Assembly (NCBI GenBank): GCA_963930775.1
Contig: OZ005692.1
Span: 7,798,135-7,862,134, forward strand
Source of the DNA: Cliona cf. orientalis
Lineage: Eukaryota > Porifera > Demospongiae > Clionaida > Clionaidae
Reading direction: 5' to 3'
DNA: 64,000 nt
Position numbers and translations under genes: made by a program
The notes under the pieces: model-generated
What the model was told of the DNA's origin: nothing
Database searches by the model: none
Seen by the model: only the letters and a program-made list of their open reading frames with translations
Part shown: in pieces, positions 19,781 through 63,523 of the stretch
Layout: each line of letters begins with the position of its first letter
Numbering within the stretch: the stretch's first letter is position 1

Positions 19781-20245
19781 TACCGTATGGTGGGTAATTT
19801 TCGTGGGGTCTAATTTTCGTGGAAAATCCGAAAAGGCCCTCAAAATTAATTTTTGTGATTTTAAATTTCGTGACAGCAACCAGTACAGGGGCATGGCAGT
19901 GCTGCACAAGCAATGATGTAATCGATACAGGCGCTCGCGATCTTCTTTGTTACTAAGCCATATATACATACAGAGACTTGGACAAAATTGAAATAGCATG
20001 AGATAGAAGAATATTAGTGTCAAAGACGCTATCAGCTAGATGACAGTGGCTACTATTGCTTGCTAATACTGGAAAGTGTTGGCCGCACTGCCACGATGTT
20101 TGTGGCCACGCCCATCATCATGAACTCGCATGGTACCATATCACCGTAGGCATTTATTTTCGTGGGTGGAAAATTTCGTGACTGCCAAGTCAACAACGAA
20201 AATAACGAAAATTAGCACCCCAAGAAAATTATCCGCCATACGGTA
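19781..20245. mobile_element. 465-bp TACCGTATGG MITE (complete reference copy)
   Basis: Ends TACCGTATGGTGGGTAATTT and the inverse of TACCGTATGGCGGATAATTT. It lies in an intron of the TOMM70-like remnant. The same family is seen at 25,183 (one side only) and at 44,205-45,265 (split by an insertion). Non-coding. Confidence 0.85.
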
Positions 20246-24720: not shown

Positions 24721-25182
24721 TATACTTTAATTTATATGCTGCACCTATGGTGGTGTGTTTATCAAATCAATAATAATAATAATAATAATAATTGTGCGCT
24801 AATAATAATTATTGCACATGCTACAGTCTGACGCCTAGGTATAGTACAAAATGCGGTACCAACTAATTACCACATATCCGTGCTTCATTGATAGAATATA
24901 GCACCTTTGTACGACAAGAGACACCAAAGAAGGCCTGGGAACGCGGCTAGGGACAGCCTATTATTATATTAGGCCACACAAACTAAATTCACTGTTAAGA
25001 CTCTGGTTAAGACATTTTGACCCTTCACCTTTCATGGGGGGCACTTTCTGAAGCTGTGGAACGTTAATAGCAGCCAAGATTTATTTAATTCACAGTGCTG
25101 ACTGACCATTATCAAGTTTGCTTTTTGTGCCATAGCTACACACTGTATAGCTACATTATGTATAAGCATAATTTGTGTATAT
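24721..25182. other. Intergenic, no gene seen
   Basis: Contains an (AAT)n microsatellite at about 24,768-24,792 and otherwise unremarkable AT-rich sequence. Confidence 0.35.
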
Positions 25183-25443
25183 ACCGTATGGCGGGTAATT
25201 TTCGTGGGGTGCTAATTTTTGTTATTTTCGTGGTTGACTTAGCAGTCACGAAAATTTCCAACCACGAAAATTAATGCCTACGGTACTGGTGATATGAGTC
25301 CGTGATGATGGGCGTGGCCATAAACATCGTGGCAGCGAAGCTATTATAAACATTCCTGGTGTTTGCAAGTGACAGTAGCCACTGTCATCCAGCTAATAGC
25401 GTCTTAGACACTAATATTCTTCTATCTCATGCTATTTGTCCAA
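25183..25443. mobile_element. TACCGTATGG MITE, one half
   Basis: Begins TACCGTATGGCGGGTAATTT and follows the complete copy at 19,781 (read inverted) to its middle (CTTCTATCTCATGC...TTGTCCAAG), then stops where the DUF7869 element begins. The other half is missing. Confidence 0.7.
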
Positions 25444-25940
25444 GGGTCATTTAGATCTTTACATAAAAGTAGGAAAAATGCCATGATTCTATCATGGGAA
25501 GATTTTACGTGACTTTTCCCTTGGGTTAATCATGGGGAGATTTTACGTGACTTCTGCCATGATCTAATCATGGGAGGATTTTACGTCACATGTAAAGTAT
25601 TCCCAGTGTTTACATTTGTGACCGTCCACGAGAAAACCATGCATAATGTGCAGAAAAAAAATTTTGAGTTATTGCCACCATTACCAACTATGACCTTTGA
25701 ACTACTGCTCCTGCAAATTTGAAGTCTCTAGCCCGTGTAGTCATGGAGATATGAGCAAAAATATACCCGGATCACCCATACTAAAGTTTTGCAAAAAAAA
25801 TTGCAATAAACATTGCTACGTACGTTGAGGGAGTGCCCTCCGTATACGCTCCGTAACGCTTACCGCAATTAAAATTTTCGCTGTGGCTAGAGTGCCGGGA
25901 ACGGCACCCAAAATATAAGGCTTAAAGAGCCGGCATAACT

Positions 25941-26912: not shown

Positions 26913-28018
26913 TCAACTCATTTGTCTTCTCTTCTTTGTTCTTGGTGCCTCTTCATCCAGGGGTGGCGGTTCTCGTGATGATGGTGTGACTGATGCTGGT
27001 GTGTCAGGTACTGAAGCCTGAGTTGGATTTGGGCAGACCAGATCTCTTGTGTCCTCTCGGCAAAACTCTCGAATTTTCTCGAAGAGATATTGCTTGCGCT
27101 CCAAGGACAGTCCAGTTGGTTGGATTACTGGAGGAAGATCGGTGGCATCCGGGGTCCAGTGTGTATCCTTCAAAAGGATATGTTCGTCTTCAGTAGCTCC
27201 CGAATGCTTCTGCACTTTAGCTACACCACGGAAGGACATACTAAAGTGGAAATGATGGTACTGTTTGACTCCTACCAATCGACGGAATCTTGGAGACAGA
27301 AAGCTAGCCCAGTCTCTCACTGGCACAATCACTTTGCCTGCCTGGCTGCCAACAAGTTGACACTCGTTGACCACTGACGAAGATTGAACAACTTCCTAAA
27401 TGTCAGCAAGACTGCTCACATCTGTGTTACGGAAGGTTCTCTTAAGCATGCCAAAACAACCATCAGGGGCGAACTTCGTATGGCCAACTACCATAAAGGA
27501 TATGGTGATCTTGTGATGCTGTCCCGTCAATACTCGCCACATGAGGTATTGGATCATAGTGTTATTCTTATTTTGGCCAGTGCAGTTGTCAGCATACAGC
27601 GTAATGGAGGTCTCTCCTAGGCCATGATGGGTGAAGAAGTAGTCAAGCATGCTGACAACTGCATTGGCCCCCTTTCCAACATCCGCAGCCTCGTCAATGA
27701 CGAAATTGACTTGTCTGGGAATTGCTTCACAGCAGATCCCAAACAGGGCAGCCTTGCGGGGTGTCAGGAAGTAGATAGGTCCGGGTTGTAAGGGATTGCT
27801 GGGGTAATGGACCTGCTGGGCAAAATCAAATGAATAATGCATAGTAATGGCGTTGCTGGCAGGTTTGATGTTGCAGTTCACAGGGGGTGGTGCAAAGCTT
27901 CCACCTGGTGCCTTGAAAGTAGCTCTTGCTTGCCGCTTACTCTCCTCTACTGCTGTCCTGTAACTGGAACGCTCCTGGGTTACTAGCAGTAGGTGTTCCT
28001 CAGCCTTCTGCAAGAGCT

Positions 28019-28049
<31 letters not shown>

Positions 28050-29442
28050 GGGGGGGGGGGGGGGGGGGACATGTAGATGTGTATGAATGTGCATTAAATA
28101 GAACACAGGGTCATGTATATTAAGTATTGAGATAGGACAAACCTCTGATTTCTCCTCTACAGGTTTATAGTGTGCCCGCATAATCATTGCACTATTCTTC
28201 TGGCATGTCCAGCAGAGATCGGACATGGGTTTGCACACGAGGATCTGAGGAAGAAGCTGGTTCCAGAGGCTGCAGAAGGACGAGTACTCTACTGCTTTCA
28301 CATCAGGAGCATTCTCTGCAGCAGTATGGTACAGACTCCACACAGCCTTCTTCGTTGTGGAAGATGGAAGCAAGACAAGATCGTCACGCTTGTATCCAGG
28401 AATTCGCCCTGGAAGTAAGATCGCATTGTCTTCCGCGTAATTCCTGATGAAGGATACAACGTATTGAATATCAGGGAGTCGTAACGCATGCTTGGGCTTC
28501 ACGTATGGACGCTTGCGGGGACAGAGACCATTGGACTCAAAGCTAGCTTTGATTGCCTGGAATTTCACTTTCCCAATGTTATGAAGGAAGCAAAATGTTG
28601 CCATGCATACATCATGACCACCATGCTTGAAACAGGTGAATGACCTCTGGCGTTGTTTCGGTGAGTGCTTCTTGGCCTGTATCATATCATCCTTCTGCGT
28701 GAGTGCAAGCAGCTGACCCATCACCACCAAGTCGAGTTCACTCTTACTCAACTGCCTGCACTCATCCCGCACCCTCTGATAGTGGTCCACAGAGAAAGTC
28801 GTGCAACACGGTTTGCCATTAAAGTGCTTGCACTTACACCCCACCCCCCCCTTGGCAAACCGTGCAATGCTGTGTTCCTCCATCTCAGCACAGTCACTGA
28901 CATCGATAACAATGTTGTCATCATCAAAGTAGAGATCACCTAGCGCATCGTAGAGGACATCGTTGTACGACCGAAAAAGTGAAAAGTCAAGATCATCGAC
29001 AGTATCATCAGGACCTGAATAAAAGTACAAGATAGTTTGTTGTACATGCATGTAGCTGAGTTGTATTATTAATTCAAAATATCCTTACCATTGGGATCAA
29101 AGTGTTCAAGAAGGGTAGGATCATTTTCTGTTGGGGCCAGAGCATCACCATCCTGTACACCATCTTCCACTTCGTCTGTGCATACATACATACACATGCA
29201 TAGTGTATACCAAATCCTCATGTATATGCAGCACATTGAGCATTGTCTGTGTAGCTTGCCACAGGAATGGACACTATGTTTAGTTACTACTAAAAATTAT
29301 ACTATGGTAATTTACCTTGTGGGGATTCTCCCTGCTCAAGATAATTGGCAATAAAATCGGTCAGAGCTTCCTGGTCTCCGCCCATGAGGTCGCTCGGGTC
29401 AAGACCGCTCAGCATGCGAGCAATGGACTCTGAAGTCGCCAT
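26913..29442 (-). CDS. DUF7869-type protein, candidate transposase, with one in-frame TAG
   Basis: Four exons with matching phases: 29,442-29,316, 29,175-29,089, 29,014-28,143 and 28,016-26,913. They make a 729-codon frame broken only by a TAG at 27,396-27,398 (codon 569); past it the frame continues for 160 codons with family-like sequence (RRLVGVKQYHHFHF, FCREDTRDLVCP). The first exon (MATSESIARMLSGLDPSD) is acidic. A Cys-rich knot (GCKCKHFNGKPCCTTF) lies near residue 105, a CWTCQ motif near residue 345, and the DUF7869 core includes VIDEAADVGKG, YADNCTGQNKNN and GHTKFAPDGCFG. These three Asp-bearing segments resemble an RNase H-like DDE/DDD site, which is my inference. The function is unproven, but the inverted termini around it suggest a transposase. 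Intron 3 holds a (GA)n/poly(G) tract. Confidence 0.75.
28018..28068 (+). repeat. (GA)n with poly(G), in an intron
   Basis: AGAGAG repeats followed by a run of about 19 G. On the gene's strand it is a C-run and (CT)n tract leading straight into the acceptor CTAG at 28,017, so it acts as the polypyrimidine tract of that intron. Confidence 0.85.
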
Positions 29443-30610: not shown

Positions 30611-31243
30611 TTAGTTGGGCAAAACATTGATGTGGTAATTTCCAGCAGCATCCTTACTTGCTTCAACTGTCATTTGATGGATACCATCCTTGTACTTCAA
30701 CTCCACTGGCCCGATAGCAACTCCTTCATCAACCATTTGACCAAGAATGATGTTGCGATAGCATGCAACATAGTAGGTAGGGTGCACTCGGTAGATTGTT
30801 TCCTGCGCTCCTCCGACATCCCTTTCGACACATAAAATGTTGCCACCAAGCGTGAAGCCCATGGTCAATGGCGTGACAGGTGAAGAAGTGGCATTCCTGA
30901 GTGTAATCTGGTCTGCGCTTCCTGTGCCAGTTGGTTTAGTATTGATACTAGGAATACCATCCAGTGACTCAACCTTGTATTTATTGCCCAGATATGCTGA
31001 TGCCATCTGCGATCCTGTAAAATTTTGCTGATCTTGGTCAAAATCTGCGATGCACAGGCCGTAGGACATGGTCCAATTGACTTGGGCAGAAGCTGGAGTT
31101 CCACCTTGCTCTGCAGGTGGAATACCACGAACTTGCCAGGCAACACTAGTCAATCCAGGTGAAGTAGGGCTTTTCTGATACACACCAAAGTGCCACGGCT
31201 GGTCAGTGGCATTCTTGAGAAATAATTTGTATGGTTCAGCCAT
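30611..31243 (-). CDS. RhiA-like protein, intronless
   Basis: A single uninterrupted 210-residue frame (start MAEPYKLFLKNATDQPWHF) that resembles bacterial RhiA, the rhizosphere-expressed protein of Rhizobium. The N-terminal pattern LxLKNxTxxxWxFxVYQ, a central SVAWQV, a VxWTMSYGLCIAD segment, and a C-terminal block (YRVHPTYYVACYRNIILGQ, then HQMTVEA) line up in order and length with my memory of that family. No signal peptide or membrane helix is seen. It reads as a cytosolic, beta-rich protein of unknown biochemical role. Lack of introns, in a window where host genes have many, and the bacterial resemblance suggest horizontal transfer or retrocopying. A TATA box lies 84-90 bp upstream. Its neighbour at 34,250 has a similar promoter layout. 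Confidence 0.75.
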   Translation of the reverse strand: MAEPYKLFLKNATDQPWHFGVYQKSPTSPGLTSVAWQVRGIPPAEQGGTPASAQVNWTMSYGLCIADFDQDQQNFTGSQMASAYLGNKYKVESLDGIPSINTKPTGTGSADQITLRNATSSPVTPLTMGFTLGGNILCVERDVGGAQETIYRVHPTYYVACYRNIILGQMVDEGVAIGPVELKYKDGIHQMTVEASKDAAGNYHINVLPN

Positions 31244-31325
31244 GATTGTAGAAAACTTGATTGATGAATGGAAAGCTTATAGTCCACGAAGTGAAAAACT
31301 ATAGATTCTCTCATCAGAACACTGA

Positions 31326-37882: not shown

Positions 37883-39352
37883 CTATTATTATTATTATTA
37901 TTATTGATTTGATAAACACACCACCATAGGTGCAGCATAAATTAAGTATATAAAGGTAATAAGCATAGAAAGAAAATGGAAATTATGTTAAGCTGTACAG
38001 ACATAGATTATATCTTCACTTAAATGAGAGTTCTCATCTGGTGCAAGTCTGACGTCTCGAATAAACGGTTTGCACAAAGAACATCTTGATCTGAGTAAAT
38101 CTTCTTATGACGGGAGCCATAAATTAAATTATATCCTAGGTTTGAACTCTGAGCAAAGACATCACGTACCAGCGAAGATTGAGATTTTAGGGCCGCAGAT
38201 AGAAGCTTGGATGATCTCCGAACAACAATATTATATATGCTGTTGAGATGAGCAGTACAATGAAGTATGCCAGTATGATACATACGAGGGAGAGACCAAA
38301 TCCTATGGAGGATATTGTTGAAAGATACCTCAAGTGACCTTAGTTCAGGAGAGGAAGAAAACCAAAGAGCTGAACCATAGAGGGATAGGCAAAAACTGTC
38401 AAATAACTTAGTCTTAACAAGTGGATTGCAGGGAGAGAATGAGTGGAGCATGCAGTTGGCTTTGCGAATAAGATCATTCTTCACTCTAACAATATCATCA
38501 GTATCAGAGAGGTTAAAGGAAAGTAAATGACCTAAGTGCTTGTCTGAGTGACCCAAATTGAGCTCCAAACCATTGAAGAAAAAACTAGCAGGAGAACAAT
38601 GTGAAGAACAAGTGCATGAGAAACGAACAAGACTTAGTTGGGTCTTACTTGCATTAAATAATAGGCTACTACAGGATGCAAAGGAAGAATAGGTATCAAG
38701 CATCAAGCGAAGAGCAGCAGAAGATGGCGCAAGGAGAGCAATATCATCAGCGTAGCATAGGGCACCCACAAAGTGATTGTTCCAGTAACAGCTGACACCT
38801 TTATTCTCAAGCTCAGTCAGTAAATCATCAACGTACACAGTGAACAAGATAGGAGAAAGTACTCCACCCTGACGCACCCCATTTGAAACAGAAGAATTTG
38901 TTAGAAAATTGACCATTCCAGGATACACATTCGGTCAAAAGCTTTACTAGCATCAAGAAAACAGCCATAAACACTAGAATCATTGATATTATAACGAGCA
39001 ATGACATTCTTGATGAGACCTGTACAAAGCTGAGTTGATGAGCCCTGCTTGAAGCCAAACTGTAAGGAAGAGGTAGAAAATGCCGATCTGTGGTCAATTA
39101 ACTTAAAGATGGTCCGTTCGAAGATCTTAGCTACTTAGGGTGGGTGCGAGAGCAATTGGCCGATAACTGTCTGAGTCAGAAGGGTCTTTTCCAGGTTTCA
39201 AAATGGGCTGCAATACACAATCTCTGACAGACTTAGGGACCGTGGCATAACCATGACCGTCACGGAGCATAGCTGTGAAAAGTTTGGAGAGCAGATGGAC
39301 TAAGGAAGTGGATGCAAAGATAAAGTGATTAGACATTAGTGATATCTATGTA
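37883..39352 (-). mobile_element. LINE, 3' part (reverse transcriptase)
   Basis: Minus strand. 39,336-39,130 encodes the RT lead-in (VPKSVRDCVLQPILKPGKDP, SYRPIALAPTLS), about 39,100-38,935 encodes QFGFKQGSSTQLCTG and DASKAFDRM, and 38,928-38,020 encodes SNGVRQGGVLSPILFTVYVD and the catalytic YADDIALL followed by the thumb. There are frame changes near 39,127 and after DASKAFDRM, where about 30 expected residues are also missing. The 3' end is an (AAT)n tail on its own strand. It is a non-LTR element of the CR1/Jockey-like group; the clade is not resolved. Confidence 0.8.
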
Positions 39353-39545
39353 GAGTAAGCGACCAATCATCGGACACCGTCGAAATTCGGACGCCTCTCC
39401 TGGGGAAACGGAAGATGCTATCGACGTCGATCTTGCGCCAGTATATGCATCCTCCCACACGCTACTTTGATCCCGCATCTGAGCTTCCAGCTTTGCGGGG
39501 TGTGGTTTTTACGTCCAATTAAAGGATGCGTCCGATATACATCAT
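39353..39545. repeat. Left terminal inverted repeat of the 9.9-kb element
   Basis: Pairs with about 49,040-49,235. Contains ATCGGACACCG, ATTCGGACGCC and GCGTCCGAT, a set of TCGGAC motifs that could be transposase sites. Confidence 0.85.
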
Positions 39546-39863
39546 AAATCGTCCAGTTTGGTCGATATTCGGACGCAGCTCGTAAAATTGTTTCTGAAGA
39601 GTTTTACTTCACTGAATTTGGAAATTAGTAACCTCTATATATCCACTATTAGGCCTCCAAATCAGACCCCCCAGTGCCCTTGTTTGTGCTAACCGCGAAA
39701 ACCACAAAATCGTTACTAGCGTGATCAATTTCCGGACAGTGGCTTAACCTGCCATGAACGATGATATCAAACATTTCACACATATAGAGCATGCATAAGA
39801 TATTATAAAGTTATATTATTAGATTTAGACCAGTCTACATCATGTTGCAATTGGTATCAGTCA

Positions 39864-42800
39864 TTAAGTGCTACATAGGGAACATTGCCAGTGATCTGGA
39901 ACTTTCTGGGGGGCAATTTTCACACATGAACAGTGATACCATTGCTTACAGCCTTCACACTCAATCATGAAGGAATCATACTCCTCTGGTAGCTTGCACG
40001 TACAGTAAACTTTGATATTCAGTGATCTATCAGTTGGGCGAGGTAAAAATTCTCGTGCTCGTGACACCTTAGGAAATGGTGACATCACTCCATCCGATAA
40101 GCACGTGTACAGATGAGATCTCATTTGTTTTTGATTGAATGAAACATCAGCAGGTGAGTTACCTGCACACACTTCAACTGCATATGCCACAGCAAATAAT
40201 CCACAATCTAGAGTTCCATTTTGCTGCTGGACAGGTAGCTTCCTTAGCTTCAAGGTAGTATGGTTTTGGGGAACGGAATAAATCTTGCATATCTGCAAAA
40301 CTGTGGCTAAGTTGAGCATCATGAATGAGCCCAAACTATCCATCACTTGAATCACTCCATTACCACAGCATGATACACACAACCAATGCTCGGAGCTCCC
40401 TACAGATCCGTGACAAAATTTATCTTTATACAATGCTACCTCTGGCATTATAGTAGTGTACAAACCTGTGTGTAGTACTTGTACAGACGGAACGTCTCGT
40501 GATATTGGCTTGAAGTCAAGATGATGGCCAAGACATGTACTTTGAAACCCTTTCAGTCTAGGATACTGCTCACTCAGCAGTGTCTGTGCTGCATTGATAA
40601 TATTATCTGTGAGTTCTTTCCCTGTTTGCAAGACTTCACGATCCCTCTGATTGAGAAAGAGGTCTTGTATCCACCAGTTAATGTCTGGATCAGGGTCATT
40701 GTCAGAAATCAGTATAGGCTCAGAAGTCACCAACACTACAAGTATATATTATTATCATGACAGGGTCACAGGGGGTGGTGGTGAGGGGGGGGGATTCTTA
40801 TTAATTTTTGTTACACCATCCTATTAAGCACCTTGTTTTCTCTTCCTCCTAGCCACACCACAACGTGGGTTCCAATGGTCATCCTTTGCAGTTGTCAATG
40901 ATGTTTGCGGGCCTGGGCTATCTGCTTGATGATGTCGAGCTGGATACTTTGAGTCCTCTGAATATTTTTGACATTATCTTGTCATAATAATAATAATTTA
41001 TCATTAATTAGATTCAAATTACCTCTTCCCCTAGTTGATCTCTGAAAACAATTATTTTCTTTCAAATTGTCGACTTGCAAAATTTTAGAATCATCTCCTG
41101 TATTTAATTATTATGCTGCGTGGCATATATAGGTAGCTAGAACTATGCTGGCCCATCAGATAATGCTATTATTGTCAGCCAATACACTATTAACTAAAAA
41201 ATTGAGAATTTTGCTCTCCTATAATTGCTGCCCCCCAGTCATGTCATAATGCCATTTATTACCTATTTTCACTCTGCTTCTGGTCAACAGACGAGGACGG
41301 TCTTCCTTGTTTGGTGATAATCCTGCAGGATCTCTTGGTGTAAATCCTGCATTAAATTTTTATAATAATAATGCGAGTCTGCTCATGAATTTGCATATCA
41401 TAATAATATTATTTAGAAAAATGGTATGTGCATAAATAACCTGTGCAGTGTGGATTTTAACGGTCGGTCATCGGTTAAAATCCGACCAACATGGCTCCAT
41501 GGCCGCCCAAATCGCTCCTGGTCGGACATATGGCTGCCTTACCATCGCTTGCCAGTATAGTTTGCAATGCACGTGCGTTCTAATACTGCTGGCTGACAGT
41601 GGTCACTAGCTGGGGGATGTTAGTAGTAGTAGTTTACCATACTTAGCACCCACTTAGCTTACAACTTTTACTACTCTGTGCTGTGGTTTGTGGTAACTGT
41701 ACCTTTGCAGCTGAACATACATGTAGCTATAGCTGTATAGCTGTGCTTGTGCATGCAAGCCATTGCTGCTACCTTCCCTTGCAAAGACACTAGTCTTATA
41801 TCTGGCTATACTACGCATGGAAATGTACAATGCATATGATGTCCGATCAACAGTTAGTGATGTCTGATCAAACTGGAATATGGTCTGACATTTGTCAGAT
41901 CATCAACAAAAAATTATAATCCACACTGCTGTGGGGGGAATCCTTTTCCTCTTGGATGACCTAGAAGTTGTTTTTTTTTTACTGCTCTGACTGTTTGATG
42001 GCAATCCTAATCCCAGATCAACTGAAAGCTTTGTGACTCCTGGATATTAAGTGAATAGCTCAATAATTGTGGAGTGGGAAATTATCAAGGGAACCTGATT
42101 CTTTCAACCATAGAAATATTATGATCAAAGGTACTGCCACATTTGTACCACAAGTGATGAATTTGTATGTTATTGTTGTTAGTACAACTACCTTGTTTTC
42201 CTAAAGGCAGGTCTTTCTGGTGTGACTTATTTTCTTGCAACAACATACCACAAGGTGACTGCACTGCTTCTATAATAATAAACACAATAATATTATTATT
42301 AATTAAGATTATAAGATTTATGTACCCTCTTTTTTTCTATGCTTCATAATCACCAACTGAGTACCATCATCATGTGAAAGCTTTGAAGTTTCTGCATGCA
42401 TGTATAAAGTGGATCTGCATGTTAAGCATGATGTAAAAATTAATATGACATTGTAGTACCTGGTTGTGACTGTCGGCTTCTTCTCATTGATCTGCAAGGA
42501 GGCTCTTTTCCGTATTGACTGCCGTTCACTGTACCTGGTTGTTCTCTTCTCCTGGTTGATCTGCGAGGAGGCTCTTTTTTGTACGGACTGCCGTTCACTG
42601 TACCTGGTTGTTCTCTTCTCCTGGGTGATCTGCGAGGAGGCTCTTTTTTGTACGGACTGCCGTTCACTGTACCTGGTTGTTCTCTTCTCCTGGTTGATCT
42701 GCGAGGAGGCTCTTTTTTGTACGGACTGCCGTTCACTGTACCTGGTTGTTCTCTTCTCCTGGTTGATCTGCGAGGAGGCTCTTTTTTGTACGGACTGCCG

Positions 42801-43290
42801 TTCACTGTACCTGGTTGTCTGCTAATTCTTCCAGTTGATCTTTGAGGAGGCTTTTTTCTGCACTGACTACCTGCTGCTGTGAGTAAAATTAATGGCACAG
42901 TAACATGGGGAAAATGTCTGAAGTAAACGTAAGGGAGGAAAGAGGGAGTATAGGAATACACATGCAAACAATGTGACAAAATTAATACTATAATTACATT
43001 CTTTTCTTTTTAAGTTAGTCAACACATCAGACGATTCTGTTGAATCTGCATTAATTTGAAATCAAGCAACGATACAAGCTTGTACTTAGCATAGGTACCA
43101 TAGAGAAAGGGTGTGTCAACCAGATAGTCATCATTGTCATGAGCAGAATCTGACCAGTGAACAGTCTTCTTGGTAGAGCCTACAAAAATATATTTGATCA
43201 AGAATCATCTTTTTACAGATGCCACAATTATAAGGGAGCCTGCAGTAAACTGCTCACCAGCTATATTTGTGGCTTCTGCCCACCTTGGTT
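39864..43290 (-). CDS. Ulp1-like cysteine protease with C-terminal PHD finger
   Basis: Eight minus-strand exons, all phase 1 to phase 1 up to the last: 43,290-43,258, 43,179-43,099, 42,876-42,460, 42,269-42,192, 42,039-41,929, 41,322-41,263, 40,957-40,832 and 40,735-39,864. The middle exons encode a basic, repetitive linker (PPRRSTRRREQPGTVNG). The last exon holds a C48/Ulp1-like protease with His (SSEHWLCV), Asp (IQVMDSLG), Gln and Cys (QQQNGTLDCGLFA) in order, then a PHD zinc finger (YCTCKLPEEYDSFMIECEGC, WYHCSC, CSLC). By family such proteases cut SUMO or related tags, and PHD fingers bind histone tails; a role in chromatin or transposition is inference. The first exon is not found; a phase-compatible exon lies at 44,693-44,610. 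The donor of the 42,039-41,929 exon has been displaced by an insertion. Confidence 0.7.
41446..41928. mobile_element. 483-bp CAGTGTGG-ended element at a splice donor
   Basis: Ends CAGTGTGGATTTTAA and the inverse of CAGTGTGGATTATAA; CTGTG flanks both sides (41,441-41,445 and 41,929-41,933), a probable 5-bp target duplication. On the gene strand the duplicated CACAG is the last five bases of an exon, and the native GTTATT donor now lies beyond the element. Confidence 0.8.
42491..42822 (-). repeat. 69-bp coding tandem repeat
   Basis: Four near-identical units plus diverged ends encode the 23-residue cassette REQPGTVNGSPYKKEPPRRS(T/P)RR within one exon. High identity between units indicates recent expansion or conversion. 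Confidence 0.85.
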
Positions 43291-43446
43291 CTGTGAGCAA
43301 TATATAATAATTATATAAAAATAATATCGCCAAGCATAATTATTAAATATTGTAGCATTCGTAGTTGCTTACAAGTACAGATTCATCCATAGATATTATC
43401 ACCTTCGGGCAGATCAATTATCGGTCACTCAAAAATACAAAATCCC

Positions 43447-43892
43447 TAGCCTCGTCCCCAGGCCCTTTGAGGAGGAGGAGGAGAAAGGGCCTAGTACACA
43501 CTATTTTCGCATGCTCCGTTACCCTAAGAATCTTAGGGGATCAGATACTATAGTATACTTCCTAGTATACTTGCCCTTTGACCTTTATTCCTCGCGCTTT
43601 CGCGAGGAGAGAATGGCAGACTCAGACGGATCGATTTTCGAGCGAGATTTCGAGACAGCTGTTGCCATGCCGATTGGTGGTGGGACTTGGACTTGGAACA
43701 GCAATGGCTCGCATTTAGCATGCGCGTTATCGCAAAGGTCAGGAGGTCATTCCGTATTCTTTACATGTGTTGGACCGTTTCACTATTATACACGTGGTAA
43801 GGATTCGTGTATGGAAAATTTGACACATGCACAAACAGTGTGTACCAGGTCCTTTCCCCTCCTCCTCCTCAAAGGGCCTGGGGACGAGGCTA
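43447..43892. mobile_element. 446-bp hAT-like element with 8-bp duplication
   Basis: TAGCCTCGTCCCCAGGCCC ends in about 70-bp arms, flanked by AAAATCCC on both sides (43,439-43,446 and 43,893-43,900). The body has an open frame from the ATG at 43,613 (MADSDGSIFERDFETAV...) that looks like a captured 5' exon but has no family I know. It shares ends with the elements at 2394, 14,681 and 61,498. Confidence 0.85.
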
Positions 43893-44204
43893 AAAATCCC
43901 CATGCTTGGGGCGTGAGCCAAGTTGATCCAGACTTGACCTCAACTTGCCATGTGGTCACGCTGCCCAGTACTGACGGACGGATATAGAACCGATTGCTCA
44001 CAATGCATACGGGACAATAAGCGATGCATAGTGTACCAGTGAGAACTGATTTTGAGTTAAGGGCACTATTAGCAACTGAATTATTCTTTTCCAAATTTGA
44101 AGTACCTAGCACCCATATTATTATAAGCCAGAGGATTATTGTGCCAAGTCTGCTACACATGCACACTACAGAATGTAATTACACTTCTGCTTAGTGGGTT
44201 TGTA

Positions 44205-45265
44205 TACCGTATGGTGGGTAACTTTCGTGGGGTGCTAATTTTCGTTATTTTCGTGGTTGACTTGGCAGTCACGAAATTTTCCCACCCACGAAAATTAATG
44301 CCTATGGTGATATGGTACTATGCGAGTCCATGATGATGGAAGTGGCCACAAACTTCGTGGCAGCGTGGCCAATACTTTCCAGTGTTAGCAAGTAACAGTA
44401 GCCGCTGTCATCCAGCTGACAGATCGTCGACACTAATATTCTTCTATCTCATGCCTTTTGTCCAAGTCTCATATCAAAACATTTTGTCAAATTTGCCCAT
44501 ACAACTGATAATTACAAGTACAAACCGCTACTACAGTATGGCTTGTATTAGCGTCTATGGCAATAGAGCTTCATTTTTCGACATATCTTGCACATAAATT
44601 TTATTTTACCCGGAAATCTCTTTAGTATGGTCAGAATCACATTCTCTGATCCTTCCTCTTTCTTCTGATACCTCACATGAAGGGCTCCATAGCCTGCAAC
44701 ACAGTGTTAATTCGCCGCAAAGTGCATGCGATCTGGACTTTTCTCCTATACTTTTGTATTAGCCTGTGGTAGGACACTTCTAAATATCAATATTACTTTT
44801 TTGGGCAAGGGGATACCCCACCAGTACGCATGCCAATGACATCATAGGAAGTTCAGCTTTCATTTGATGCCCGCCATAAGTGTTTTGAATCGGAAGTTAC
44901 GGGTGTTTTTTTGGAAAACGCTTATCTGCCATATGTTTGTACAGTCTTCTATGAAAAATTTTGCGGGCAGATGACGCCACAGCCAATTACAGCCAATTAT
45001 CATCCGTAGATTTTTATAAGATAAGGCTAAGGTAAGATTTGACAACTGCCATAGGCATGTTTTGATATGCTGTAGGTATGGCTTAGTATTACAAAGAAGA
45101 TCGCGAGTGCGTGTATTGATTACATCATCACTTGTGCAACAGTGCCACGCCACTAGTCTAAGACTGGTCGCTGTCACGAATTTAAAACCATGATAATTAT
45201 TTTTGAGGGCCTTTTCGGACTTTCCACGAAAATTAGACCCCACGAAAATTACCCGCCATACGGTA
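44205..45265. mobile_element. TACCGTATGG MITE split by an about 600-bp insert
   Basis: The left half (44,205 to about 44,470) and right half (about 45,075-45,265) together match the complete copy at 19,781-20,245. The break falls in its centre (after TTGTCCAAGTCTC, before GTATGGCTTAG). The 600-bp insert holds the exon-like block below. Confidence 0.75.
44610..44693 (-). other. Exon-like block inside the split MITE
   Basis: TTGCAG precedes and GGTAAAAT follows an 84-nt open block encoding (G)YGALHVRYQKKEEGSENV and ILTILKRFP. It is phase 1 at both ends, so it would splice in frame onto the 43,290 exon of the PHD-Ulp1 gene on the same strand. It may be an upstream exon of that gene or a captured fragment. 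Confidence 0.45.
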
Positions 45266-45752
45266 TAACTTAAGCTTATCTCATGTGTCATAATTACCCC
45301 GCGCGCATGTACAAGGGGTAAAACCATTGGTTTGTCCCTCTGTTGTGGGCTACTCTAGCGAGCTAAACCCCCTTTTGCTTACCGCTCAGTGGGCGTGGTT
45401 TTTCAAGCTCATAAATCGCTAAAATTTAAATGGCTTACTAGTGCTACAAATCGTGCATTCTTTATTCAGCATACCTGAGGTTTATCAATCACACCCACTC
45501 TACTGGAAGCAACTGTGCATACTCAAACTCAGTGTAGGAAAGTGTTGTCAAGTCATAATAACAGCTCTGCAGTAGAGTATTGCAATACTATGCTACAGAG
45601 AATTCGGGGTATGTGCTATAATAATAATATATAGAGAGAGCTCTAGTTATTGTGAAGGCTTAATGCCAGCCTACTTCCCTAGCCTAAAGTAAGATGTACC
45701 ACCCATGAGCTATCTTTTGTTATGCTACAGCAAAAGATTAAGGTCCCGGTAC

Positions 45753-47462
45753 CTACACGAAAATAGTAACGTTTCCCCGAAATTTACCTTTTTTCTTAAT
45801 CTTGCTTGCAATTTTTTGCTCCTGCTTCAACCTGGCTCTTTCCTCTCGTTTTCTCTTCCTTTCTTCTTTCTTTTGGGCCTCCTCTTGTTTTTTCTTTTGC
45901 TGTTCTTCAATTAGCTGTAGATTTTCCATACTTGTGAGAACTTTTCCGGCAGACTTGGTATGCTTTGTTGGTAGTTCATTTGGTGGTATATTTGGAACCA
46001 AAAAGTTACTGATACTTGTAGCATGTCGAAGGGATACCCTGGCAGGTGCTGTAGTTTCTTTTTCTGAGTTCGACAAAGAAGACAGAGCTGGGCTCAAGGA
46101 TTGTGGAGTGGATGAAATACTGGATAGTTCGCTGAGCGGGCGTGTACACCGGCTGGGACTATACAAAGGTATGTAAGCTAGCCCAGTCCTCTCAGCAAGA
46201 TTCTCAGGATGGAATGATGAAAATTTGTCATCCTTTGAGTTAATTGCTGATCTATTAAAAGGATAAATTCCAGTAGCTTTGAAACTTGCAATGATATTGG
46301 GTGGGGATACTGCTTTGTGCCAAGATTTGGAAAATATCTCACAAAATTCAACTCGGGTAACTACCCGCCCAGGATTTTTAGTAGAGAAATTGTGACATTC
46401 TTCTCTCCAAGCAACCTTCAATGGAGAAAAGCAACCCTTATCTAGCGGTTGAGTGATATGTGTTGTATGGGGAGGTAATGCAAAGACAATGACTTTGCTT
46501 TCAGCAGCTAATTTAATAGTTTCAGGACAGTAATGAGATGAGTGCCCATCTAGTAGTAGTAATACCGGACGAGCAGGAGGAATGTACTCCAAAAAATGAC
46601 ACTGAAACCAGTAGTAAAACAAATCACTAGTCATCCAACCATTACTTGATAGTCCATAAAGTGTTCCTGGAACTTCACCCTCTGTCCATTTCTGATTCAA
46701 AGATTTTCTGTCAAAGACAACAAAGGGAGGAAGGGCTTGTCCGCACGCACTTGCACATGCAAGAACTGTCACTTGTGACTTATCTCCACCAGTAAGGTAG
46801 CTGGGATTTTTTGAGCCAACTACATCTACTACCTTTAGGCACTTGGGATTCAATGGGAGCCCAGTCTCATCGCAATTGTAGATTCTTTGTGGCACATCAT
46901 AGATTTTGTTAGATCGAAGGCATTCTTCAAGCATGTCATAGTAGCGAAGCAGCACATCATTATCAGAAGCCATTGCTCTTGCGTATGAGAGTGATACCGC
47001 TGACCGCAAGGTAAGATTAGGATGCCTTTGGCAAAATCTTTCCCACCAACCATTGGTAATAGTTGTTTGAATTCCTTTATCATCTAGTATTTGCTGAACT
47101 AATGAAAATACTTGTTTCCTTGTGTGGGGGTACCCAATCCTGGCAGTTTGCACCAAGAAACTCGTAAGCTCTTCTTCTTCTTCTACAGTTAAATATGGAT
47201 CACGCCCTGACTTCGCCCCCACCAAAATTTTTCCAGATACATGATCGTGCAAAGTTGACTTGGGAACTCCATACATAGCAGCAGCCCTCCGAACACTTTC
47301 CCCCTTCTCGTAGGCATACATAGCATTGCTCATACATTCATCATTCCAATTATATCTGTAAGGACCACGAATCGGTATACTTTTCGTAGTAGGGATACTT
47401 AACGGCTTAGATTTAGCCCGTACAATACGTTCTGCCAATGGTTTGTGGGGATACATCTTCAC
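45753..47462 (-). CDS. pogo/Tigger-like DDD transposase, intact
   Basis: One uninterrupted 569-residue frame. The N-terminus has a Psq-type helix-turn-helix (about 40-78: ESVRRAAAMYGVPKSTLHDH), then a CENP-B-like second DNA-binding domain (about 90-165, with YPHTRKQVFSLV and GWWERFCQRHP). The catalytic core has all three acidic residues: D198 (YNCDETG), D305 (LLLDGHSSH) and D341 (ITQPLDKGCFSPLK), a DD35D spacing. The C-terminus is a highly charged Lys/Glu/Arg/Gln coiled coil (about 510-555). By family it cuts at terminal inverted repeats and inserts at TA, acting in the nucleus. Its placement inside a 9.9-kb TIR element with TA flanks argues for a transposase rather than a domesticated jerky/CENP-B gene, although the intact frame alone cannot decide. 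The ATG at 47,462 was chosen as the first in frame; a 5' UTR acceptor (TTGTATAG) lies just upstream. Confidence 0.85.
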   Translation of the reverse strand: MKMYPHKPLAERIVRAKSKPLSIPTTKSIPIRGPYRYNWNDECMSNAMYAYEKGESVRRAAAMYGVPKSTLHDHVSGKILVGAKSGRDPYLTVEEEEELTSFLVQTARIGYPHTRKQVFSLVQQILDDKGIQTTITNGWWERFCQRHPNLTLRSAVSLSYARAMASDNDVLLRYYDMLEECLRSNKIYDVPQRIYNCDETGLPLNPKCLKVVDVVGSKNPSYLTGGDKSQVTVLACASACGQALPPFVVFDRKSLNQKWTEGEVPGTLYGLSSNGWMTSDLFYYWFQCHFLEYIPPARPVLLLLDGHSSHYCPETIKLAAESKVIVFALPPHTTHITQPLDKGCFSPLKVAWREECHNFSTKNPGRVVTRVEFCEIFSKSWHKAVSPPNIIASFKATGIYPFNRSAINSKDDKFSSFHPENLAERTGLAYIPLYSPSRCTRPLSELSSISSTPQSLSPALSSLSNSEKETTAPARVSLRHATSISNFLVPNIPPNELPTKHTKSAGKVLTSMENLQLIEEQQKKKQEEAQKKEERKRKREERARLKQEQKIASKIKKKGKFRGNVTIFV

Positions 47463-47613
47463 ATTTGATTAACCTATACAACAAACAGATATTAGAATCT
47501 ATTCTAGAGTACATACAAATTTAATATTAATAAGCCTTGGAAATCAGCAGACAATGGTTCAATGTGTTCTTAGCTATAAGTTAACTCCCATCATAACAAC
47601 TATATATAGTGTA

Positions 47614-48081
47614 CAGTGGAACCCCGCTTAACGGATACCCCTCAACGGCCGATACCTGTGATATAACAGACAATTCTAAATGTCCGTATTGTATTTCCAT
47701 AGACTTCAATATATTCAAATCCCCTCAACAGCGGACACCCCCCGTATAACGGACACTTATTTTGGTCCCGTTCGAGCCTGCGCAATATTGAACAACCTCA
47801 CATAATGGACAGTTAGGCCACACCCACCATTAGAATCGGTCGGTTTTAGCAACCAGTAACTACTAAATATGTCTCAGATTCTTGCTTAGGAGCTGTCAGT
47901 TGATAGATCTCTCATCGATATCAATACGGTCTTTTTCGTCGTCCACAGAAGTGCTTTATCATGGCTGGCCACGATTGTAGGAGGGGCGTGGTCAACCACT
48001 AACCCCTGAGCTAAGAGATACCTCGCTACAGTGGACAAAATCTTTGGTCCCAATGGTGTCCGCTTTAGAGGGGTTCCACTG
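47614..48081. mobile_element. Tigger-like MITE, CAGTGGAACCCC ends
   Basis: CAGTGGAACCCCGCTTAACG at the left and the inverse of CAGTGGAACCCCTCTAAAGC at the right, flanked by TA. These are classic Tigger-type ends, unlike those of the 9.9-kb host element, so the resident transposase probably did not mobilise it. Non-coding. Confidence 0.85.
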
Positions 48082-49039
48082 TACCATAACACAGAGGTTT
48101 GCACCATTATAATCATAATATTATACCCTTTCATGACTGGGAGGTCTGGGACTGCAGGGTTGCAAATGTTAACAGGATTAGTATCATTCAGGGTGTGTCT
48201 ATAAAATATAGTTAAAATAATGGCTGCCAGCAGCAACAACAGTGTGTGGCAGAGTGCTCAGTGCATGGTCAACAGTAAGAGAGCGTCCTGTTAACAATGG
48301 TCATAAAATTAATTGCACATGCATGCTTCGAGCATTACAAAAGTTAGCTGATGAAGACTTACCCAACTTGATATCATCTTTTTATTATATTAAATGTATA
48401 AGCAATATCCATAGTATAAATATGTATCCAGAGTACATGCAACACTTGAATCAATATCCATACATGAGTCCCCTCCCACCTTCTCCTCCCATTTATGATT
48501 CCTAACATTTTTGGTTTCTTGGAGTTCGAGGATCGGACAGGGATTGTCTAGTGACAAGTGCATCCCCCCAACCACGCATATATACACACATGCACACCAA
48601 AAAAGCTCTTATAACATAGCGTCACCATTGATACTAAGGTCCAAGCCAAGACAATATTGAATTTCTTTGACCGGTCTCATGATTCTAGCAACCCTCATCT
48701 AGATCTTAAAGAAGTTGCCTAATATCATTAATAGCCTAGTACGTACCTTGAAAAGTACTCAGGGACACTAACACCACGTACCGTCTGATACAGCCCGCCA
48801 AAGACGATTCTGAGGCTTTACAAACCGCAATAGGCACTACTGCGCATGCGTCCGAAAAACGATCTCGTACTTGAGGTCGGCAGAATAGTTGCGGTTGGCT
48901 CAGCCTAGAGCCCCCTGGTTTCTAGTTTGGAGCCTGAATAGAGGGTAGGTAGGTGTACGTGCATACCGACTTTGACCACCCTGCGTCGCTCGTAACGGCG
49001 TAAATAGTTCGTGTCCGAAAAATGATATTATCGTACGAA
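48082..49039. other. Inner right arm of the 9.9-kb element
   Basis: No further gene is recognised. The right part carries GCGTCCGAAAAACG and GTGTCCGAAAAATG motifs that extend the subterminal set of the terminal repeat. Confidence 0.4.
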
Positions 49040-49235
49040 TTGTGATGCATATCGGACGCATCCTTTAATTGATCATTAAAACCACACCCCGCAAAGCTGC
49101 AAGCTCAGCTGCGGGATCAAAGTAGCGTGCGGGAGGGTGCATATACTGGCGCAAGATCGACATCGATAGCATCTTCCGTTTCCCCAGGAGAGGCGTCCGA
49201 ATTTCGACGGTGTCCGATGATTGGTCGCTTACTCT
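49040..49235. repeat. Right terminal inverted repeat of the 9.9-kb element
   Basis: Inverse of 39,353-39,545 with about a dozen differences, none in the outermost 50 bp. Confidence 0.85.
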
Positions 49236-49602
49236 ACCATCTGACTTGTTCGATTTAAGATGTGACAGAGCCTCGGAAACAGTATGAGGGGACACCGAAA
49301 TTGAAGCTAAGTCAGAGGAGGAGAGAGAGCTTTCAATATTAGTGAGAAGAGATTGAGAAGAGTCATCCGAGTTCAAGAGACTGTGAAGCTTGTCACCAAA
49401 GGCATTAGCAACATGGTGCAGTAGTAGATCGATGCACCCTTATTGGATTTACCAGCATTACGAACAATTCTCCAAAAATCATCGCCTGATGTGCTCCTGC
49501 TGTCTTTTTAATCTGCGGACCTCATACTTGATAGAGTGCTTCTTAATTTGAAAAAGTACGCCCGAAGAGGGACAACCAGAATCACATCATAACTTATGCC
49601 AG
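49236..49602 (-). mobile_element. LINE, 5' part (linker before the RT)
   Basis: Minus strand, 49,380-49,236 encodes SSSDLASISVSPHTVSEALS then HLKSNKSDG, the usual segment before the RT lead-in found at 39,336. Upstream, KKHSIKYEVRRLKRQQEH-like sequence fits the region after the endonuclease. The LINE is 5'-truncated here, abutting the tandem array. Confidence 0.75.
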
Positions 49603-50835
49603 TAGAATTATTCGTGGAGTCAGTGGGCGATTGAATGATCACTTATTCCAAACGTCTCGCGATCGCGTCAACCAACGCGTTTGCAAGAGGCTCACCAAGG
49701 AGCAACCGAGCGGGGGAACTGGACTCCCCACGTCGTTCACGCATTAATAGAATTATTCGTGGAGTCAGTGGGCGATTGAATGACCACTTATTCCAAACGT
49801 CTCGCGATCGCGTCAACCAACGCGTTTATAAGAGGCACACCAAGGAGCAACCGAGTGGGGGAACTGGACCCCCTCGTCGTTCACGCGTTAATAAAATTGT
49901 TTGTGACCATTCGTGGAGTCACTGGGCGCTTGAATAACCACTTATTCCAAACGTCTCGCGATCGCGTCAACCAACGCATTTGCAAGAGGCGCACCAAGGA
50001 GCAACCGAACGGGGAAACTGGACTCCCTTCGTCGTTCACTCATTAATATAATTATTCGTGGAGTTAGTGGGCGATTGAATGACCACTTATTCCAAACGTC
50101 TCGCGATCGCGTCAACCAACGCGTTTACAAGAGGCACACCAAGGAGCAACCGAGTGGGGGAACTGGACCCCCCTCGTCGTTCACGCGTTAATAAAATTAT
50201 TCGTGGAGTCAGTGGGTGCTTGAATGACCACTTATTCCAAACATCTCGCGATCGCGTCAACCAACGCGTTTGCAAGAGACGCACCAAGGAGTAAGCGAGC
50301 GGGGGAACTCGTCGTTCACGCATTAATAGAACTATTCGTGGAGTCAGTGGGTGATTGAATGACCACTTATTCCAAACGTCTCGCGATCGCGTCAACCAAC
50401 GCGTTTGCAAGAGACGCACCAAGGAGCAAGCGAGCGGGGGAACTGGACTCCCCTCGTCGTTCGCGCATTAATAGAATTATTCGTGGAGTCAGTGGGCGAT
50501 TGAATGACCACTTATTCCAAACGTCTCGCGATCGCGTCAACCGCAAGAGACGCACCAAGAAGCAAGCGAGCGGGGGAACTGGACTCCCCTCGTTGTTCAC
50601 GCATTAATAGAATTATTCGTGGAGTCAGTGGGTGCTTGAATGACCACTTATTCTAAACGTCTCGCGATCGCGTCAACCAACGCGTTTGCAAGAGGCACAC
50701 CAACGAGCAGCCGAAACTGCACTCTCCTAGCATTATTGAAATTGAAATTAATAGTGGAGTAGGCGGGCATTCGAATAACCATTCTTTCCAAACGTCTCGC
50801 GATTGGGTCAATCAACGCATTTACAAAGGCACATT
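49603..50835 (+). repeat. 145-bp tandem array, nine units
   Basis: Unit marker GTGGAGTCAGTGGGCG starts at 49,614, 49,759, 49,913, 50,058, 50,203, 50,338, 50,484, 50,619 and 50,754, so the period is 145 bp with 135- and 154-bp variants. Each unit has ACGTCTCGCGATCGCGTCAA and CAACCAACGCGTTTGCAAGA. Units at the right edge are most diverged. Open frames on both strands across the array are artefacts of the repeat. Confidence 0.9.
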
Positions 50836-61098: not shown

Positions 61099-61497
61099 TC
61101 ACCTATGCAGTGTCCCCCCTTGTTTAGTGACCTCGTGCTGTATGTAAGCTTACTTCGATACTTTGTGCAAGAATTCTTTGGTGTGTTAGCTAGCTACCTT
61201 TTCCGTGGGCCAGATTGTACCTCTTTGGGCTTCATATGTAGGCTAGCCTTTACCGGTATACTATTAAATAGGAGAGATATTGGCACCTGCCATTCTAGCC
61301 ATACCACTGAGACTATCCCCCTTCCCAAATGGCTCCTGAAATAGGTACTAGACCTGACACCCATTTCGCTGGCTACCCTAGGGGTGGGTCTCTTCAGTAC
61401 TGAGGGATTGCTGCTAGCTATTGCACTAAAAATTATTTCATCCCTGTATCACATGAATGGGGACACCACTCTATAGCCAGCAACAGGGGGGTCCCTA

Positions 61498-61570
61498 GCC
61501 TCGAACCCAGGCTCACTTTCGGGGGGGAGGGGAAAGAGAGCCTGGTACACACTGTCTGCGCATGCGCCAA
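61498..61570. repeat. TAGCCTCG terminal repeat, left end of a RecQ-bearing unit
   Basis: TAGCCTCGAACCCAGGCTC, then GGGAGGGGAAAGAGAGCCTG and GTACACACTGTCTGCGCATG, the same order as the about 70-bp end of the hAT-like element at 43,447. The partner end is not in the window. Confidence 0.6.
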
Positions 61571-61698
61571 AATTCCCAGAAATCCTGGGAATTGGTATAC
61601 CGCCGTAAAAGATGTTGTATACTAGTCCGTTTTCGGACCGTTGTTCTTCCGTGTCACGATACTTGATCGCGGTACCGTGGAGATATTGAGAGGGACGA

Positions 61699-63523
61699 AT
61701 GGTGACTGTAGAATTCGAGAGCGCTTTGGCCTACGCCCTGAACGCCATCAGAAGGAAAGATCTGAAGCTGAAGGACGAACAGGAATGTGCCGTTAGATAT
61801 TTGTATGATGGGGAGGACGTTTTTCTGTGGTTGCCCACGGGGTTTGGGAAGAGCCTTTGTTATGAGTGCTTACCTTTTCTCTTTGACTATAGACTGGGTC
61901 GTACAGGGGCTCCAGCTAGTCGTAGCACAGTTCTTGTTGTATCTCCGCTGGTTAGTTTAATGACAGATCAGGTGTCTTCTCTTATGGAGAGGGGGGTTTC
62001 AGCAGCTATCCTTAGCAGCCATGAACTCCGTGATAAAAGCTTTTTAGCTACAGACAAGGCTCTTCAAACACCAGGGATGTTTAGCTTACTTTTTGCTTCA
62101 CCAGAGGCAGTAATTGGGGCTACTAAGTGGAGAGAGAAGCTGTTAGATTTTCCTCTTACCGAGAGGATTGTTGCTGTTGCTGTTGACGAAGTGCTCTGTG
62201 TCTCAAAATGGTATGTGTCAGTTAAATTATGTATACTATAGGTACTGAATGCAAGTGCATGAAGTAGTATTACTAGTGGACACACAGCAGTGCCCGAATT
62301 ACCTCACTCAGTGCTATTTTACACATGCACATTGTGCTGGCGGTAGTCACATGAGGAGAGCGTGACAACCCCTGGGGCTATTAGTCTCATTCCCAAATCC
62401 CACCCTTGAGGTATATACCAATTGGATGGAGTCACTAGGGTAACGTCTATAGGGATGTAAATTTAATAATGTTTGGTTTAGAGTTTGTGTACCTTGCCTT
62501 TTCTACATGCAGGCTAGCTATTATACTAGAATGTGCGTGAGTGATCCCCATACAAATCTGTGCTGCTGGCTCTCTGAGTGTTATTCTTTGAGTGCCAGTA
62601 TCAGCTTTCTAGCCATAACCTATAATACATTGGTTCCCGATATTATATCATTAGGAGTGGTTCCTTCCGACCCGAGTATTCTCGTGTGGGCGAGATCAGG
62701 GCATTACTCCCAGCAGGAACGCCCATGTTGGCAGCAACAGCAACTGTGACGAAGGCTATCAGGCAGGACATATGCTGTAAGCTAGAGATGGTGACCTGTA
62801 AACTAGTGTGTGCATCACCAGATCGGTCCAACATATATTATGAGGTAGTTAGATGTACCGATATGGAGCAAGACATGTACCCCCTTGTGGAAGAATTACG
62901 TAAAAACAAATAGCAAATGCAGAGAGTGATTGTTTACTGTAGATCTTTGAATATGTGTTCTTCGATGTATTTCTACTTTTTAACTAGTCTCGAGGCAGAG
63001 AGCTACTACCCACCAGGAGCCGCTGAAATTAGTGATAATCGTTTATTTGGCATGTTTCACGCACAAACTCCAGAACATAATAAATTAAGATGTGATTCTT
63101 ACGAGTATGCAAAGTGCAGACGGGTTAGTAAGGGTGGTGTTTGCCACGGTTGCCTTAGGTATGGGAGTTAACCTGGTCGGAGTAAATAGAGTGATACACT
63201 ATGGCGCACCCTCTTCAATTGAAAATTATTTTCAGGAGAGTGGAAGGGCAGGTAGAGCAGGAGAGCAGGCCAAATCAACCATACATTGGAAGCCTTCTGA
63301 TGCTCCCATTAGAAAGAATATGGGCGATCCTCGGAATGTTGAGATAGCAGCTGTCCGTGCATACTTAGAAAATGTTACGGAATGCCGCAGATACCAGTTA
63401 TTACGACATTTTGATGTAGATGTGACAGTTACACGAGACAACATTTTATGTTGTGATGTATGTGCATCATTAGCATTAGATACTTATACAACAATTAATG
63501 ATAAAAAAATAACAGCTAATTAG
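61699..63523 (+). pseudogene. RecQ-like DNA helicase gene, near-complete with two faults
   Basis: Exon 1 (61,699-62,210) has motif I LPTGFGKS, motif Ia LVVSPLVSLMTDQ and motif II as DEVL rather than DEAH (VDEVLCVSKW). Exon 2 starts at 62,655 (TTAG|G, phase 2): SFRPEYSRVGEIRALLPAGT, motif III MLAATAT, motif IV VIVYCRS, motif V VVFATVALGMGVN and motif VI YFQESGRAGRAGE, then a Cys motif (CCDVC) like the RecQ zinc-binding part. By family it is a 3'-5' DNA-unwinding ATPase. Faults: an in-frame TAG at 62,911-62,913 and a frame change near 63,085-63,092, so the copy is probably dead unless these are sequence errors. The start ATG lies about 125 bp inside the terminal repeat at 61,498. It ends tail-to-tail with the next frame. 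Confidence 0.75.

Follow-up and report, generated by a model that had tools for sequence, protein, structure and literature searches.

A pogo-type transposon of the sponge Cliona cf. orientalis with long inverted ends and a predicted Ulp1-like/PHD finger coding region

Does a large DNA transposon of the sponge Cliona cf. orientalis carry a gene for an Ulp1-like protease domain and a PHD finger as cargo, or does this coding region belong to the transposase gene itself? The question is raised by an element of 9,882 bp within a stretch of 64,000 nucleotides (contig OZ005692.1 of assembly GCA_963930775.1, positions 7,798,135 to 7,862,134 of the forward strand; hereafter the window), which a preliminary description had presented as a pogo/Tigger-like unit with a PHD-Ulp1 gene as cargo. 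The element is known from one copy, within this 64-kb window. Our analysis favours, at odds slightly better than even (about 0.52), an autonomous-type cut-and-paste pogo transposon with long ends and a single gene that would span nearly the whole element and is predicted to code for a transposase, a basic linker, an Ulp1-like protease domain and a PHD finger.

The TA-flanked unit (Table 1) is a real transposon element. Its inverted arms (39350-39574 and 49013-49237) extend over 225 nt without a gap and are 90% complementary, and blastn of the two ends aligned 203 bp with 94.1% identity. Counted inward from the TA, 189 of the 203 bases of the terminal inverted repeats (TIRs) match, with complete identity over the first 72; the repeats had earlier been put at about 190 bp. 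The element splits a decayed minus-strand long interspersed nuclear element (LINE), whose reading frame continues from one flank into the other if exactly one TA is left at the join, and is broken with zero or two. The TA flanks and the restored register of the preliminary description are hence borne out. The joined reading with one TA is KSNKSDG-T-stop-ISLMSNHFIFAS, with its single in-frame stop at the join; because of this stop and of further lesions elsewhere in the LINE, the restored frame is support for an insertion with TA, short of proof. Direct repeats (49603-50000, spacing 145-154 bp) adjoin the LINE fragment, and the open reading frame (ORF) 50087-50467 seems by eye to carry them on.

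The motif TCGGACRC, picked after the ends had been read, occurs ten times on the two strands of the 64-kb window, with nine of the occurrences inside the ends of the element, in two arrays that mirror each other in motif order and offset. Since the 203-bp repeat contains three of the four left sites, and the fourth sits on the inner border of the 225-nt arm, the arrays of the two ends do not count as independent; on the right, the fifth site (-48855) lies outside repeat and arm alike. We read these sites as putative transposase binding sites.

The earlier size of 9.9 kb holds for the distance between the TAs, of which four later nested repeats account for about 2.5 kb, leaving a remainder of about 7.4 kb. 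The repeat at 44203-45267 is interspersed, with relatives at 19781-20245 and 25180-25450 and thus three places in the window, and the one with GTACAGTGGAACCCC ends resembles a short nonautonomous pogo/Tigger-type element. An exact search of a viral contig collection, poor in animal DNA, with a 21-mer of a nested repeat gave no match.

An intact DDD transposase had been described between the ends, and this was confirmed: the reading frame is open, matches the Pfam families DDE_1 (7.4e-28), HTH_psq (1.7e-6) and HTH_Tnp_Tc5 (1.1e-4) and contains the catalytic set D196, D303 and D339 (DD35D). Unspliced, the ORF extends to a stop at 45753-45755 and comprises 567 amino acids counted from the ATG. 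The match to the IS630 family model (1.9e-7) was under the cut-off of that model, no match to CENP-B_N was listed at E up to 10, and a sequence search of the PDB returned three matches, none of them a transposase.

According to the accessible part of a pogo survey (PMC7386202), the catalytic spacing of the superfamily ranges over DD29-59, elements measure 1.2-5.2 kb, transposases have 300-977 amino acids and TIRs fall into classes of up to 40, 40-60, about 100 and 392-856 bp. The same source assigns HTH_psq plus HTH_Tnp_Tc5 with DD35D to the Fot and Fot-like families, and CENP-B_N plus HTH_Tnp_Tc5, or HTH_Tnp_Tc5 alone, with DD29-36D to Tigger. Pogo elements have N-terminal HTH_psq, CENP-B_N or HTH_Tnp_Tc5 domains and duplicate TA (or TAA/TAAA) at the target. 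The present one has the superfamily's DDE_1 domain with a D-D-D spacing in the published range, N-terminal HTH_psq/HTH_Tnp_Tc5 and, in its one copy, TA flanks. As noted in the preliminary description, it is larger than usual: both the 9,882 bp and the roughly 7.4 kb that remain without nested repeats exceed the published 1.2-5.2 kb, which is a survey range and no catalytic feature. Its TIRs of about 203 bp fall between the published classes. In a comparison with Tigger, HTH_Tnp_Tc5 and DD35D fit and HTH_psq stands where CENP-B_N would; the DNA-binding make-up fits the published Fot/Fot-like pattern better. Of the former label pogo/Tigger-like, the pogo part is retained, and for the DNA-binding make-up Fot/Fot-like is the better label than Tigger. 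Judged from its predicted domains and its TA flanks, the element is pogo-type, and it stands at the edge of the superfamily by size and ends.

On the same strand, the last predicted exon codes for the region that raised the question. Its C-terminal PHD finger was recognized by Pfam (PHD_5, 4.2e-8; PHD, 8.8e-7), and the best PDB match was the PHD finger of PHF2 (5.1e-11), with Y, M and W aligned. We take these three residues to sit at the methyl-lysine cage positions of PHF2/PHF8. Phf2 binds H3K4me3 nucleosomes (PMC11790891, accessible part), and the PHD finger of the element may likewise bind H3K4me3. The region preceding it is assigned to Ulp1 on account of residues H920, D936 and C981 of the predicted protein, which were assigned by eye and occur in this order, and of the sequence VQQQNGTLDCG, with a Q before DCG. 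This order of H, D and C with a Q upstream of DCG is presumably the catalytic motif of C48 (Ulp1) peptidases. Several results speak against the assignment: the Peptidase_C48 match (0.026; 14.8 bits) stays below the Pfam gathering score of 20.7, a sequence query of the PDB with the Ulp1 region returned only antibodies and a capsid and no protease, and AlphaFold models made without relatives were unusable (mean pLDDT, the predicted local distance difference test, 36.9 and 41.5). Profile-wise, the Ulp1 identity of the region is weak.

A connection of this exon to the transposase is suggested by a donor AAAAAAG/GTAAAT at 45788/45787, which scores 5.7 bits and lies in the transposase ORF 11 codons ahead of its stop. 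Starting from it, six predicted GT-AG introns would give one open frame to the stop behind the PHD finger, a predicted transposase-linker-Ulp1-PHD protein of 1,093 amino acids in which all joined exons are entered in phase 1. Each frame-preserving 69-bp unit of exon 4 contains CCAGGTACAG, which is donor-like and recurs in the same phase. Candidate exon 5 breaks the frame with 112 nt, would keep it with 111 nt, and is followed here by no GT; omitting it preserves the frame. Because a nested repeat interrupts this exon, the present copy may be impaired. Of the multi-exon Ulp1-like/PHD gene on the same strand that had been proposed, the PHD matches and the C48-type residues stand; the C48 match lies under the cut-off and candidate exon 5 is broken.

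The exon chain was compared with shuffled sequences. A scan with strict thresholds recovered one of the six proposed inner exons, and the thresholds were loosened to just include the proposed exons before 200 shuffles were run, a post hoc choice that favours those exons. After removal of three nested repeats, the best chain comprised 1,203 coding nt (shuffle mean 362, maximum 807; 0 of 200 reached it); each of its 11 exons runs from phase 1 to phase 1, which the search did not require of the inner phases. Exons 3, 4, 6 and 7 recur in it exactly, exon 5 is lengthened and exon 2 is absent. With nothing left out, the chain had 1,254 nt, a length reached by 2 of 200 and 0 of 100 shuffles in two runs. 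The end phase discriminates, with 1,203 nt against 869 and 871 nt. Support from the test is stronger for a predicted multi-exon gene ending in Ulp1-PHD than for the link of this gene to the transposase.

Against the single gene stand, first, the shuffles of the sequence with all nested repeats retained and exon 4 masked, in which 6, 0 and 11 of 100 reached the observed length at three threshold pairs. Without exon 4 the chain is hence unexceptional at two of the three pairs, with 0 of 100 at the loosest only; much of the signal derives from this long exon, and the result lowered our odds for one gene from 0.58 to 0.52. A control in which exon 4 was cut out instead was void, as the cut created new exons (the 1,041 nt obtained exceed the difference between 1,203 and 417). 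Second, the strictest threshold pair produced a best full chain with other exons and phases, and, as long as no repeat was removed, the chain included mixed-phase exons at all three pairs. Third, start phases 0, 1 and 2 gave 1,240, 1,203 and 1,151 nt. As the phase of the transposase is not favoured among them, the link to the transposase depends on the quality of its donor and on a 1-in-3 phase match. Finally, some splice sites are weak (donor of exon 3, -0.2; donor of exon 4, 1.0; acceptor of exon 6, 0.0; no GT donor at exon 5), an AATAAA occurs at 45466, about 290 bp past the transposase stop, and within the element neither AATAAA nor ATTAAA was found past the PHD stop. The chain search offered further exons (43045-42998, 42269-42192 and 41097-41023), so that the exon list given here is provisional. 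Overall the chain support for one gene is mixed, and the splicing of the transposase to Ulp1-PHD is an inference.

The element could instead hold two genes, a transposase ending at 45753 and a separate Ulp1-PHD gene carried downstream on the same strand, an arrangement that we consider rather less probable. The transposase ORF does have its own stop, followed by the AATAAA at 45466 and by a possible start exon (45472-45439) in the right phase, and the exon chain is untied to the phase of the transposase. The donor of this start exon is weak, however, with 1.8 bits against the 5.7 bits of the transposase donor, and nine AATAAA/ATTAAA occur on the coding strand in 10 kb, so that one near the stop is unsurprising. 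In the Ulp1 part, of 537 residues, no in-frame Met precedes residue 169, and the best start exon outside the nested repeats reaches 1.8 bits. The earlier designation of the Ulp1-PHD part as cargo holds in that a coding region lies between the long ends; its separate status is doubtful in view of the phase-1 chain to the transposase donor and of the layout of Ginger1 transposons (see below), with two genes as a possible arrangement.

It is improbable that in this copy only an ordinary pogo transposon and an unrelated Ulp1-PHD gene, from the host or another transposon, were captured between the long ends. A composite of this kind would agree with the single visible copy, with a length beyond the published pogo range, with the occurrence of Ulp1 and PHD modules in other transposons and with two weak AT-rich inverted pairs (71-72%, 28-32 nt) that bracket the last exons. 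A smaller pogo inside the larger unit was sought as TA-flanked 18-bp pairs (up to 5 mismatches) bracketing the transposase and is not supported: three pairs were found, and six controls gave 0, 7, 2, 4, 6 and 3. Moreover, the inverted pairs of at least 20 nt and more than 80% within the element are its ends, nested repeats or a local palindrome. That there is no transposon unit at all, and that two opposite copies of a long repeat around unrelated DNA or an assembly artefact simulate one, is highly improbable: neither a second copy nor an empty allele was seen for this one copy within the 64-kb window, but the LINE is continuous and in frame over the join with one TA, the ends mirror each other down to motif order and offset, and a transposase lies between them.

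Table 1 Features of the element and its surroundings (positions in the window)
Feature	Position	Strand	Remark
Left TA flank	39351-39352		
Whole element, 9,882 bp	39353-49234		coding strand minus
Left terminal inverted repeat	39353-39555	+	about 203 bp
Left TCGGACRC array	39370-39576		sites +39370, +39387, -39535, +39569
Last exon, Ulp1/C48-like domain and C-terminal PHD finger (predicted)	39864-40735	-	
Predicted exon 7	40832-40957	-	phase 1 to 1
Predicted exon 6	41263-41346	-	phase 1 to 1
Nested repeat, CAGTGTGGATT ends	41446-41928		CTGTG either side; right end by eye from flank
Candidate exon 5	41929-42039	-	donor side interrupted by nested repeat
Predicted exon 4, basic linker	42460-42876	-	five 23-residue units (69-bp minisatellite)
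Predicted exon 3	43099-43179	-	phase 1 to 1
Predicted exon 2	43258-43290	-	phase 1 to 1; by eye; length-maximising chain has 43367-43284 instead
Nested repeat, 67-bp inverted ends	43447-43892		diverged relative at 61492-61578
Nested repeat, 1,065 bp, TATACCGTATGG ends	44203-45267		
Exon 1, transposase	45788-47456	-	HTH_psq, HTH_Tnp_Tc5, DDE_1, DD35D
Nested repeat, GTACAGTGGAACCCC ends	47611-48084		upstream of transposase start
Right TCGGACRC array	48848-49217		sites -49217, -49200, +49052, -49018, -48855
Right terminal inverted repeat	49032-49234	-	about 203 bp
Right TA flank	49235-49236		

If one gene spans the element, its transposase would bind the TCGGACRC sites and cut at the TA, resulting in excision and in insertion at TA, and exon 1 would be spliced to the downstream exons. 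Retention of intron 1 would give a short, transposase-only form of 567 amino acids, and splicing a long form of a predicted 1,093. In the long form, the PHD finger (nearest in the PDB to the PHF2/PHF8 type) could dock the protein on active H3K4me3 chromatin, the Ulp1 domain could act on the transposase itself, or on silencing or repair factors that depend on SUMO, by stripping off their SUMO, and the basic 23-residue repeats of exon 4 might assist nuclear import or lend the protein nonspecific affinity for DNA. Tentatively, and with less than even confidence, we propose that a pogo lineage gained, independently of Ginger1, a splice-fused desumoylating protease together with a histone-mark reader, and that intron retention decides whether a minimal or a chromatin-equipped transposase is made. 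If this is true, SUMO removal combined with chromatin reading would be a recurrent add-on among unrelated animal transposases. The gain of the same pair by unrelated transposases would suggest that they have a need in common, be it to counter SUMO-dependent silencing or to steer repair and target choice, and the long and short forms of a single transposase would offer a concrete test object.

The window contains several other features. A NACHT-domain ORF (6287-8191; 3.2e-22) with a weak NLRC4_HD2 match represents an NLR-type gene. An ORF with a match to DUF7869 (27399-28016; 2.7e-12) lies next to a 355-amino-acid ORF without Pfam match (28017-29084), and both may belong to another multi-part element. 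An open reading frame of 221 amino acids (30611-31276) had no Pfam or NCBIfam match, and a RecQ-like DEAD-box ORF is located at 61690-62238.

Searches for relatives covered collections of viral, prokaryote and phage DNA, in which misses weigh little because they hold little animal DNA. The transposase gave 29 pattern matches in the genome contig collection and the Ulp1-PHD exon two in the viral contigs, none of them confirmed; an exact 27-mer of the element end was absent from the viral contigs, and neither the transposase nor the Ulp1-PHD exon had a tblastn match among phages. A pogo motif pattern was found in none of the viral contigs and in one of the genome contigs, a 3.3-kb contig (L001) filed under a Cyanobium metagenome-assembled genome. 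It contains a DDE_1 transposase ORF (499-1953, minus strand; 1.1e-10) with a pogo-type motif and is perhaps a eukaryotic contamination; two of its 24 listed ORFs were scanned, and neither matched Ulp1 or PHD. No record that combines Ulp1 or PHD with a pogo-type transposase came up among the open-access papers listed, which is weak evidence of absence as Repbase reports, subscription papers and supplements lie outside that search; two pogo surveys use neither word in their main text.

Among known systems, of which the following details are taken from the accessible parts of the cited papers, the Fot-like elements share HTH_psq plus HTH_Tnp_Tc5, DD35D and the TA flanks, which were found in 50 elements (PMC7386202). 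The present element differs from them by its 9.9 kb, the predicted 1,093 amino acids, the TIRs of about 203 bp and the additional Ulp1-like and PHD domains. Single modules are known from other transposons: Ulp1 or C48 occurs in Mutator-type elements (cited in PMC2836005) and in oomycete Cryptons (PMC3212892), likewise DNA transposons but of other transposase or recombinase classes, and PHD fingers occur in Rehavkus transposases (PMC6446971) and in RAG2 (PMC4411706). The RAG1-RAG2 type resembles our case as a transposon-derived system with a PHD finger partner; there, in contrast, the PHD finger is part of a separate Kelch-type protein and the transposase is of the Transib type, and the accessible text of PMC4411706 makes no mention of Ulp1. 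The pair is known from Ginger1, where all transposases but one have a C-terminal OTU or Ulp1 domain and that of Ginger1-9_HM from Hydra combines Ulp1 with a PHD finger; the gene often has introns, the TIRs measure 44-270 bp and the elements 2.6-7.1 kb (PMC2836005). For these domains the authors put forward an untested active role in transposition, e.g. the activation of repair (PMC2836005). A DDE transposase with C-terminal Ulp1, in Ginger1-9_HM with Ulp1 and PHD, is also what is predicted here. Ginger1, however, has a Gypsy-integrase-like core and CCGG/CCGT target duplications, whereas the element from C. cf. orientalis has a pogo-type DDE_1 domain and TA flanks, and the occurrence of the pair with a pogo-type transposase appears to be new.

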